DNA of 22,277 bases from a virus, in IMG/VR virus record IMGVR_UViG_3300030685_000099, positions 1 through 22,277 of that record. The stretch is one strand, 5' to 3'. The position numbers and the translations under genes are program-made. Shown here piece after piece: positions 1,440-16,304 of this stretch (positions within the stretch are counted from its first letter, which is position 1; each line of letters starts with the position of its first letter). The notes beneath the pieces were generated by a model that did no database searches, was not told where the DNA came from, and was given only the letters and a program-made list of their open reading frames with translations.

Positions 1440-1949
1440 ATGGGACAAATAAAATGTAAACGGGCAATGCGCCGTATATCGAATCAATCGGAAGCATTAA
1501 CAGTAATAGCATGTGGGTGTAAATTTCCACGAATAGAAAAGATTACTGAAAAGAAAAAGAAAGTCGAATCAACCCGTATTGGTAAAAAAGTGCGAGCATT
1601 CAAACCTGGAGAGTTACTCAAAGTATGGAATACCTGTGGAATACCAGGATCGATAACAAAAATAGCAGCATATGCAATCCATCAATTGGACGCAATGAAA
1701 CCAGCTGAAAAAGCAAAAACAAAAGCCGTAATAGCTAAATTCAAAGCCGGTAAAGAAAATAGATTTACCAGGTGGATGTCGGCTACAAGCAGCCCAAAGA
1801 AAGTGAGCAAGCGCGCGCCAAAAGGAACTTTACCAAAAGTAAAAGAACCTATAGCAGTGCACCAATTCATTCCAAAGAATGAAAAGAAGCGCATTGAGGC
1901 AGCGAGAATAAGGCGATGCAAAATGGCTAAATTGGCTAAAGCGGCATAA
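1440..1949 (+). CDS. Highly basic hypothetical protein, 169 aa
   Basis: The start ATG is preceded directly by TATCAAA, a context shared with two other genes in the window. The product is strongly basic throughout, with Lys/Arg clusters near residues 7-12, 33-52 and 130-165, and an Ala/Lys-rich C terminus. An N-terminal CGC and a later single Cys do not make an obvious zinc site. The composition suggests nucleic-acid binding or a virion- or DNA-packing protein, but no family is recognised. It lies directly upstream of the split tRNA gene; a short hairpin (GTGCG/CGCAC) at about 1962-1980 separates them. Confidence 0.65.
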   Translation: MGQIKCKRAMRRISNQSEALTVIACGCKFPRIEKITEKKKKVESTRIGKKVRAFKPGELLKVWNTCGIPGSITKIAAYAIHQLDAMKPAEKAKTKAVIAKFKAGKENRFTRWMSATSSPKKVSKRAPKGTLPKVKEPIAVHQFIPKNEKKRIEAARIRRCKMAKLAKAA

Positions 1950-1989
1950 ACAATAAGAGGGGTGCGACTCTATAACGCACAAAATTAAT

Positions 1990-2024
1990 GGTCTAATAGC
2001 TCAGTTGAATAGAGCAACACCCTT
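1990..2024 (+). tRNA. 5' half of an interrupted class I tRNA gene (Lys-like body)
   Basis: This holds the acceptor strand GGTCTAA (1990-1996), T8 A9, a D-arm GCTC/GAGC (1999-2002, 2012-2015), anticodon stem ACACC (2017-2021) and the start of the loop, CTT (2022-2024). The sequence then changes to an A-run and a terminator hairpin. Its partner is at 2755-2789: the anticodon stem pairs 5/5 and the acceptor 7/7 (two G-U) with that half. The Lys-like label rests on overall resemblance, mainly of the 3' half, and is not certain, since the anticodon itself is at the break. Confidence 0.8.
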
Positions 2025-2035
2025 AAAAACAAAAA

Positions 2036-2062
2036 AAGTCATACTAATTTGTAGTATGACTT
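2036..2062 (-). terminator. Rho-independent terminator for the HNH gene
   Basis: A perfect 11-bp stem (2036-2046 with 2052-2062) with a 5-nt loop is followed, on the minus strand, by a run of seven T. There is no T-run on the plus side. It therefore ends minus-strand transcription from the HNH gene, after that transcript has passed antisense through the tRNA-Arg gene. Confidence 0.8.
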
Positions 2063-2066
2063 AAAT

Positions 2067-2140
2067 GTACCTGTAGTTCAACTGGATAGAATCTCGCTCT
2101 TCTACAGCGATGGTTGGAGGATCGTGCCCTCCCAGGTATA
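2067..2140 (+). tRNA. tRNA-Arg, anticodon TCT
   Basis: A full cloverleaf can be drawn. The acceptor GTACCTG (2067-2073) pairs with CAGGTAT (2133-2139), discriminator A is 2140, and the D-arm is GTTC/GAAT with a GG-containing loop. The anticodon stem TCGCT/AGCGA encloses loop CTTCTAC (anticodon TCT), and the T-arm is GGAGG/CCTCC. The T-loop reads ATCGTGC instead of the canonical TTCGAAT type, which is unusual. CCA is not encoded. The anticodon reads AGA, a common codon in this AT-rich sequence. The gene lies inside the insertion that splits the other tRNA. Confidence 0.87.
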
Positions 2141-2653
2141 CTATGCGGCTTTAATATTGTTAACAATTAAATTATCATTATCAAATTCCCAATGACAATT
2201 TGGACATAATTGAATCAAATTTTCATAGGAGTTAACATCTTTAAGTTTTGAATCTAAAGAAAATGAATGGATTGGCTTTATATGACAGAGTTCAACATGT
2301 TTTTTATACCCACAATTAGCACACGGCAAAGAGGATAAATCCTTAAACCAAGAACGAGCTAATTGGCGAATATGAACATGCTTAGAACTGGAATGTAATT
2401 TCTTTATGCATTCTCTTTCAGAATATTCAAATAAAGTATTATTTAATAATGCTTCTTTTTGATTAGACAAATGATTTTGATAGCAATCCTCACAAAGAAG
2501 ACTTCTATAGTTTCTAACAATATTATCGCACCTTGAGCATTTTTTAGCAATCTTTCTTTTAGGATGAAGTTTGCCATTTAAAGCATTTGCACAAGATTTG
2601 CAACAAAATTTAGGATTTTTGGTTTCAATACCACAATTTTCACAGATATTCAT
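2141..2653 (-). CDS. HNH endonuclease with zinc-binding cysteines, 170 aa
   Basis: The C-terminal half carries an HNH nuclease core: a CANCG knuckle, then LCHIKPIHSF with the catalytic His, an NLIQLCPNCH segment with the Asn and second zinc knuckle, and a final His/Asp-rich end. The N-terminal half has several further Cys pairs (CENC, CCKSC, CSRC, CEDC) that look like one or two zinc ribbons for DNA recognition. This fits free-standing or intron-type homing endonucleases of phages. It is on the opposite strand to all neighbours, ends immediately after the tRNA-Arg, and lies between the halves of a broken tRNA gene. An AT-rich leader with a TATAAT-like box (complement of 2685-2690) precedes it, but no convincing -35 was found. 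Confidence 0.88.
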   Translation of the reverse strand: MNICENCGIETKNPKFCCKSCANALNGKLHPKRKIAKKCSRCDNIVRNYRSLLCEDCYQNHLSNQKEALLNNTLFEYSERECIKKLHSSSKHVHIRQLARSWFKDLSSLPCANCGYKKHVELCHIKPIHSFSLDSKLKDVNSYENLIQLCPNCHWEFDNDNLIVNNIKAA

Positions 2654-2754
2654 ATTACATTCAAATTAATGAGTTGATTTATATATTATATAACGTATTT
2701 GAATAGAGAAATGTTTTATTGAAACCAAATTATTTTAACAAAGTTTTTAAAAAA

Positions 2755-2789
2755 GGTGTGGGTCGCAGGTTTGAATCCTGCTTGGATCA
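2755..2789 (+). tRNA. 3' half of the interrupted class I tRNA gene
   Basis: This holds the anticodon stem 3' strand GGTGT (2755-2759), a five-base variable region, T-arm GCAGG/CCTGC (2765-2769, 2777-2781) with loop TTTGAAT, acceptor TTGGATC (2782-2788) and discriminator A. The acceptor matches the 5' half at 1990-1996 with only G-U wobbles, so the two pieces are one gene. It is preceded by TTTTT and six A. Joining any A-only junction to the 5' half gives the loop CTTAAAA, that is anticodon TAA, not a Lys anticodon. Confidence 0.8.
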
Positions 2790-2810
2790 CAATTATTAAT
2801 AATCTAAACT

Positions 2811-3230
2811 ATGAAAGTATCATTTGATTTCGATTCAACATTATCAATTGATATAGTTGAACAATACGCAAAAGAATTAATCGAGCAAGGACATGAAATA
2901 TGGATTGTAACATCAAGATTTAAATATTTTGACAAATCAAGAAATAAAGTAAATAATTCAGATCTTTATGAAGTTGCAGATAGAATAGGGATTAAAGAAG
3001 ACCATATACATTTTTGTGAAATGGAGAACAAATCCGAATTCTTAAAAGACAAAGAGTTTTTGTGGCATTTAGATGATGATGCAATTGAATTATCATTTAT
3101 AAGAACAGACACAACAGTATTCCCCATTTGGAGATATCAAGGAATTAATTGGAAACAACAATGCCAAGACTTACTAAGAATATTAACAAACAAATTTAAA
3201 CCAAGTCAAATAAAATTAATTACTTTATGA
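2811..3230 (+). CDS. HAD-like phosphatase, 139 aa
   Basis: The N terminus reads FDFDSTLS, the DxD motif I of the haloacid dehalogenase superfamily (nucleophile Asp near residue 6, acid Asp near 8). IVTSR follows at about 32-36 (motif II), and WHLDDDA near residue 85-91 supplies the motif IV acidic residues. A Lys candidate for motif III lies between. HAD hydrolases act on phosphate monoesters; phage members include 5'-nucleotidases and the 3'-phosphatase half of polynucleotide kinases, but the substrate is not shown here. The gene lies just downstream of the restored tRNA 3' end with a 21-nt gap. Confidence 0.82.
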   Translation: MKVSFDFDSTLSIDIVEQYAKELIEQGHEIWIVTSRFKYFDKSRNKVNNSDLYEVADRIGIKEDHIHFCEMENKSEFLKDKEFLWHLDDDAIELSFIRTDTTVFPIWRYQGINWKQQCQDLLRILTNKFKPSQIKLITL

Positions 3231-16174: not shown

Positions 16175-16248
16175 AGGCCATTGCCCACATAGGTACATGG
16201 GGATCTTAGAAATAAGATAGTATACGAGTTCGAATCTCGTATGGCCTA
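16175..16248 (+). tRNA. tRNA-like element with an abnormal anticodon loop
   Basis: The acceptor AGGCCAT/ATGGCCT pairs 7/7. The D-arm CCCA/TGGG has a loop with GG, and the T-arm ACGAG/CTCGT carries the canonical TTCGAAT loop. The anticodon arm ATCTT/AAGAT leaves a 6-nt loop AGAAAT with no U33 (or an 8-nt loop with a 4-bp stem). No anticodon can be assigned with confidence. It may be a decayed tRNA, a tRNA mimic, or an unusual decoding tRNA. CCA is not encoded. Confidence 0.65.
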
Positions 16249-16304
16249 CAATTTAAATTGAACCTTGGAAAAGTTCAAATAATTATCACTATTATTAATC
16301 TTCG

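Follow-up and report, generated by a model that had tools for sequence, protein, structure and literature searches.

A phage tRNA-Arg(UCU) gene broken within its anticodon by an insert carrying an HNH endonuclease gene and an unlike tRNA-Arg(UCU) gene

Introduction

Mobile endonucleases avoid harm by residing in introns, in inteins or at intergenic sites. Group I introns with homing endonucleases occur in the anticodon loops of tRNA genes, as in cyanobacterial tRNA-Leu(UAA), and certain endonuclease genes of fungal mitochondria bring with them a foreign 3' end for the gene that they invade, as for atp6 in Allomyces. Among phages, the nearest studied system tied to tRNA genes is SegB of T4, which lies between tRNA genes and promotes the inheritance and amplification of the tRNA region (PMC2988022, PMC13096335). 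All phage group I introns known at the time of a 2014 review were in protein genes (PMC3984707).

Here we analyse a 22,277-base IMG/VR record (the window, meaning the whole stretch of DNA), in which an insert with an HNH endonuclease gene and a tRNA-Arg(UCU) gene interrupts another tRNA gene. By its DnaB, which shares 70% identity with the DnaB of the crAss-like phage cr118_1 (Crassvirales, Suoliviridae), the window is assigned to a crAss-like phage, of which it is a fragment; cr118_1 has no tRNA annotation in the stretch viewed.

Results

A native tRNA-Arg(UCU) gene is split inside its anticodon

The locus and its flanking genes are laid out as follows.

1440-1949, plus strand: upstream flanking gene for a small basic protein; its start matches the gene upstream of the tRNA in the related contigs L168 and L176
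1990-2024, plus strand: 5' half of the native tRNA-Arg(UCU) gene, with acceptor strand, D-arm and anticodon 5' strand, ending in CTT (U34), assigned from pairing and shuffles; GGTCTAATAGCTCAGTTGAATAGAGCAACACCCTT
2025-2066, minus strand: A-rich junction and intrinsic terminator (hairpin 2062-2036, then a T-run) for HNH transcription
2067-2141, plus strand: carried, intact tRNA-Arg(UCU) gene (Rfam, 51.9 bits)
2141-2653, minus strand: HNH endonuclease gene, 170 residues, with N-terminal Cys pairs and a C-terminal HNH motif (CHIKPI...NLIQLCPNCHWEFDN), tail-to-tail with the carried tRNA
2654-2752, minus strand: HNH leader and probable promoter; AAATCAACTCA adjoins the start codon
2753-2788, plus strand: 3' half of the native tRNA-Arg(UCU) gene, AAGGTGT... 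through the acceptor end; AAGGTGTGGGTCGCAGGTTTGAATCCTGCTTGGATC
2811-3230, plus strand: downstream flanking gene with a weak PHROG match to polynucleotide kinase; directly after the intact tRNA-Arg(UCU) in L168

A sequence-only reading of the locus had proposed one cloverleaf split in the anticodon loop, and the two halves bear this out, as every stem is fully paired: 7/7 in the acceptor stem (two G-U), 4/4 in the D-stem, 5/5 in the anticodon stem and 5/5 in the T-stem. The pair scores 23.5 in a split-tRNA scan, a value reached by none of 150 dinucleotide shuffles of the window searched on both strands (best 22.5). ARAGORN in intron mode misses the split gene at 1990-2788. The break lies inside the anticodon, after U34, with CTT before the insert and AA behind it, and C35 and U36 (CT) are lost.

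When CT is restored from the empty site described below, ARAGORN reads the joined halves as tRNA-Arg(tct). The restored gene is 82% identical to the syntenic tRNA-Arg(UCU) of the related contig L164, its best matches among 420 tRNAs are tRNA-Arg(TCT), and AACACCCTTCTAAGGTGTGGGTCG, which spans the anticodon arm and variable loop, is identical in the two. From this shared anticodon arm and variable loop we conclude that the broken gene is the native tRNA-Arg(UCU) and that the break destroyed it. The suggestion that a precise join would give anticodon TAA fails on the ARAGORN call, and a TAA or leucine reading is ruled out by the empty sites, which carry tRNA-Arg(UCU).

G19:C56 is a near-universal tertiary pair in tRNAs. 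Swapped 19:56 pairs are seen by eye in phage tRNA-Arg(UCU): A19:U56 in the broken window tRNA, L116, L168 and L176, and C19:G56 in L094, L099 and L103.

Elsewhere in the window, positions 16175-16249 hold a second tRNA-like gene (acceptor AGGCCAT/ATGGCCT, T-arm ACGAG-TTCGAAT-CTCGT, 37 bits to RF00005), which has a 6-nt anticodon loop, AGAAAT, and is missed by ARAGORN. The same gene is present in two contigs, G001 and G002, with a DnaB identical to that of the window.

Related phages carry the uninterrupted gene

Related contigs were fetched by their DnaB gene, and the HNH gene is absent from all 27 related phage records. Where the window has the split gene, L164/L166/L186, L168, L171 and L176 carry just one tRNA-Arg(TCT), uninterrupted and in a syntenic setting. 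L168 matches the window on both flanks: upstream in the start of the gene for the small basic protein, and downstream in the gene that directly follows the tRNA. These relatives share about 77-89% DnaB identity with the window and belong to other species; contigs with 100% identical DnaB end short of the locus. The exact pattern of the intact anticodon arm occurs in three contigs only (L164/L166/L186). The comparison that the sequence-only reading had called for thus supports its claim that an intact tRNA gene was interrupted, and the contigs L164, L168, L171, L176 and others represent the uninterrupted target alleles expected of an HNH homing endonuclease.

The interrupted form at 1990-2788 comes from one metagenomic contig, so that a local misassembly is possible; an assembly artefact is nevertheless an unlikely source of the layout, because the same layout appears in other contigs (see below). 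The gene at 1440-1949 fetched no relatives as bait, BLASTN of the region against named phages gave no matches, tblastn of the HNH protein gave matches in two distant phages only, and the exact pattern of the interrupted 5' half had no match.

Upstream of the tRNA, the element AGAGGGnTGCGACTCT..ACGCA (1956-1980 in the window) is conserved at the same place in L171, L176 and L179. It could form an H-type pseudoknot, and it is kept in L179 even without a tRNA.

The insert carries an unlike tRNA-Arg(UCU)

The contents first described for the insert, a tRNA-Arg(TCT), an HNH gene on the opposite strand and its terminator, are all present. The protein matches Pfam HNH_2 at 34.9 bits, above the cut-off, and the residues of the catalytic HNH motif are invariant in five aligned homologs. 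The terminator hairpin (2062-2036, z = -4.9) lies beyond the carried tRNA, so the HNH transcript would run antisense through that tRNA before ending, and terminator, tRNA, HNH gene and leader form one compact unit.

The carried tRNA departs from the consensus, with T-loop ATCGTGC and anticodon loop CTTCTAC. Its identity to the broken tRNA-Arg(UCU) is 57%, which marks it, by comparison of the two genes, as a foreign copy rather than a recent duplicate. Among the arginine codons of the window genes, AGA is the most frequent (96/198). The insert thus carries an intact counterpart of the very gene that it breaks, both being Arg(UCU) as judged from sequence, and such an arrangement would be expected of a home-and-rescue element. 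A mobile HNH element with a tRNA, as originally suggested, is still the best reading, but the word 'cargo' does not fit: as an isoacceptor of the destroyed tRNA, the carried gene reads as a replacement rather than as an unrelated passenger.

Unusual T-loops are a wider feature of such genes. They deviate from the TTCRA consensus in 9 of 17 tRNA-Arg(UCU) genes adjacent to an HNH gene, the window's included, versus 41 of 364 other tRNAs (p = 6e-5). The odd T-loops of the carried tRNAs may be a means of evading the nuclease, or else host defences that cut tRNAs.

The insert is not a self-splicing intron

Rfam searches with lax filters over window positions 1980-2800 did not find a group I core (RF00028), in line with the earlier remark that the insert has no room for one, whereas the same search detected RF00028 in L147 (28 bits), L221 (56.3) and L222 (29.6). 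In L147 the core was detected despite a gene inside it. Moreover, joining CTT to AA yields a 5-nt anticodon loop without two of the anticodon bases, rather than the rejoined exons expected of a group I intron. A group I intron hidden in the insert was rejected on these two grounds, and with it the self-splicing route.

It could still be imagined that the interrupted tRNA is functional by a splicing or RNA-repair route of another kind, since all its stems are kept, two anticodon bases aside. We consider this highly improbable. The two anticodon bases are absent from the halves, a ribozyme core was not found in the insert, and a recent insertion accounts for the preserved stems equally well. The splicing route of a new kind that had been offered as an option is also unnecessary, because a replacement copy is present, and it is unsupported, as the intron in those relatives that do splice is of the ordinary group I type.

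The HNH family is tied to tRNA-Arg(UCU)

A scan of viral sequences gave 68 loci with 49 distinct HNH proteins besides that of the window. In 29 of the 49, a tRNA-Arg(UCU) lies at most 150 nt from the HNH gene; tRNA-Arg(UCU) makes up 21 of the 320 ARAGORN tRNAs in the HNH loci. The sister of the window HNH in the tree is L082 (support 97/83), and in L082, L088 and L147 the anticodon loop of tRNA-Arg(UCU) is interrupted by a group I intron (exon junction CTT/CTAA) that contains the HNH gene in antisense orientation. The like arrangement, an antisense HNH gene within a group I intron of tRNA-Arg(UCU), occurs with junction CTTCT/AA in two bacterial metagenome-assembled genomes, L221 and L222 (Candidatus Aquidulcis, Anaerolineae). 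Several of the HNH reading frames extend, at their C-termini, into the antisense of the adjoining tRNA. On these distributions, we conclude that the HNH family is tied to the tRNA-Arg(UCU) gene.

Fewer members pair with Met(CAU) or Leu(UAA) tRNAs. Such same-family HNHs, adjoining tRNA-Leu(UAA) or tRNA-Met(CAU), are found in L109 and L129 and in L113, L126, L135-L137, L142 and L145, and they look as if the target tRNA had been switched.

These members bear on another possibility, that the window HNH is an ordinary free-standing homing gene of the SegB type, which cuts elsewhere, drags adjoining tRNAs along and landed in a tRNA by accident. The pairing of some members with Met or Leu tRNAs would suit this, as would the position of SegB between tRNA genes and its promotion of tRNA-region inheritance and amplification (PMC2988022, PMC13096335). 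We think it improbable, however, given that the family is tied to one isoacceptor, that its intron-borne members are located in the anticodon loop of tRNA-Arg(UCU), and that the destroyed and carried tRNAs of the window are isoacceptors.

Introns in tRNA genes of viral contigs were seen in L082, L088 and L147 (Arg UCU, with the HNH) and in L143 and L138, which have no such HNH inside; those of L143 and L147 are group I by Rfam. The relatives described here place group I introns in phage tRNA genes, beyond the protein genes covered by the 2014 review (PMC3984707).

A separate tRNA-Arg(UCU)-like family (rarely CCU, ACG or Ile UAU) was observed in L083, L089, L092, L095-L097, L101, L103-L105, L108, L111, L113, L114, L123, L124, L130 and L135. 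It adjoins the HNH gene in most of these, is absent from the window, and is mostly missed by ARAGORN. Its D-arm is permuted: about 7 nt separate the acceptor from the anticodon stem, and the 3' strand of the D-stem and a GG-bearing, D-loop-like stretch (TAAnnGGA..AT) lie behind the anticodon arm. The anticodon arm is flanked by a 3-bp helix, which is 94% paired across 18 sequences and shows double changes in all three pairs, and the whole structure outscores 500 of 500 shuffles. The literature consulted on non-canonical tRNAs describes no bacterial or phage tRNA with such a permuted D-arm.

The broken-tRNA layout recurs

The recurrence of the layout was assessed by looking for HNH genes placed between a 5' tRNA half and an orphan 3' half. 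Such half-pairs match at 11 of 50 HNHs, as compared with 34 of 1960 control intervals (1.7%; p = 4e-8 without the window). The intron cases account for three of the 11 matches; an adjacent intact tRNA explains L083, and L095 is probably due to chance. L087, L092, L108, L115 and L116 share the layout of the window, as do, on visual inspection, L096 and L110, about seven in all. The order of HNH and tRNA is swapped relative to the window in L108, L115 and L116, and the HNH gene is antisense to the broken tRNA in all convincing cases. L089, L083 and L102/L103 have a 3' half only.

The broken tRNAs of L087, L092 and L115 are most like arginine tRNAs, and the remaining loop in L116 reads TTCTAG; assignment of the L110 tRNA to arginine failed. 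A search for the empty site of the L087 tRNA returned only its own contig. The break points vary by lineage, being in the anticodon loop in the window, L092 and L116 and in the D-loop in L108 and L115, so that any fixed cut site is putative.

The recurrence also bears on a passive origin, in which a group I intron with an HNH gene in tRNA-Arg(UCU) lost its ribozyme and a chance-acquired, unrelated tRNA-Arg(UCU) masks the loss, leaving a dead relic without drive whose HNH gene is passive or decaying. Such an origin would agree with the intron-borne state of the sister L082, with the AAATCAACTCA leader similarity to it, and with an insert about as long as the introns (727 and 721 nt). We nonetheless regard it as unlikely: the HNH frame is intact, the conserved Cys and HNH residues and its own terminator are retained, and chance acquisition fails to explain why the pairing of HNH and tRNA-Arg(UCU) recurs in many lineages.

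The window insert may descend from an intron. The tree is compatible with such descent, and the short leader stretch common to the window HNH and L082 is possibly an intron remnant, a suggestive similarity only; an insertion made independently at the cut site would give the same picture.

Discussion

Sequence comparison establishes a broken native gene, empty sites in relatives, a replacement tRNA, a family tie to tRNA-Arg(UCU) and introns in the same loop. Taken together, these make it likely that the insert is a homing element whose HNH nuclease targets tRNA-Arg(UCU) genes and which survives its own insertion by means of the replacement gene that it carries, rather than a self-splicing intron. 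From this we infer cleavage of tRNA-Arg(UCU), resistance of the carried copy, mobility of the element and function of the replacement.

In the proposed mechanism, an HNH-family mobile element specific for tRNA-Arg(UCU) would have inserted into the phage's own anticodon, destroying the native gene, and the carried, unlike tRNA-Arg(UCU) would take over the reading of AGA. During mixed infection the HNH nuclease would cleave a competitor's intact tRNA-Arg(UCU) gene, and repair from the element-bearing genome would copy the nuclease together with the replacement tRNA. Intron-borne relatives would keep the tRNA by group I splicing, and elements of the window type by a whole replacement tRNA.

A more ambitious form of this proposal, to which we give an even chance, is that the element is a natural selfish element of the home-and-rescue kind. 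Its HNH nuclease would cleave the anticodon region of competitors' tRNA-Arg(UCU) genes; it would reside in the broken gene with a cleavage-resistant replacement tRNA, having abandoned the self-splicing intron or never had one, and the strategy would have arisen repeatedly across phages. Destroying an important gene and supplying a substitute would be a third way of avoiding harm, besides splicing and harmless sites. It is the principle of engineered rescue gene drives, and it appears to be natural here. Since relatives rely on introns in the anticodon loop of tRNA-Arg(UCU) as well, the switch of strategy should be directly open to study. Such elements could also help to account for the clustering of phage tRNA genes with nucleases and for the odd sequences of phage tRNA-Arg(UCU).

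The searchable literature yielded no account of a phage element that both disrupts a tRNA and brings along an isoacceptor of it; this is a statement about that literature rather than proof of novelty. Group I introns that carry homing endonucleases and lie in tRNA anticodon loops resemble the window insert in the site of insertion, in the endonuclease gene inside and in the need for tRNA function to persist, and the nearest relatives of the window HNH are of this kind. The window insert differs in having no ribozyme, and any retention of function would depend on a second tRNA gene. With T4 SegB and other free-standing phage homing endonucleases it shares a free-standing nuclease gene among phage tRNA genes, and a drive towards inheritance of the tRNA region would be expected in both; SegB, however, is a GIY-YIG enzyme that targets a tRNA intergenic region, and it neither interrupts a tRNA nor carries an isoacceptor of a destroyed one.

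In layout the window element is like the synthetic home-and-rescue and cleave-and-rescue drives (HomeR, PMC7968924; ClvR, PMC7951863), which combine a nuclease inside the target gene with an unlike, functional copy of the target. It is natural and phage-borne, with an HNH protein and a tRNA target, and the resistance of its carried copy is putative. In the atp6 type of Allomyces, the insertion is similarly offset by carried sequence of the same gene, but what is carried there is the partial end of a protein gene, giving a hybrid gene, whereas the window element carries a whole, independent tRNA gene.
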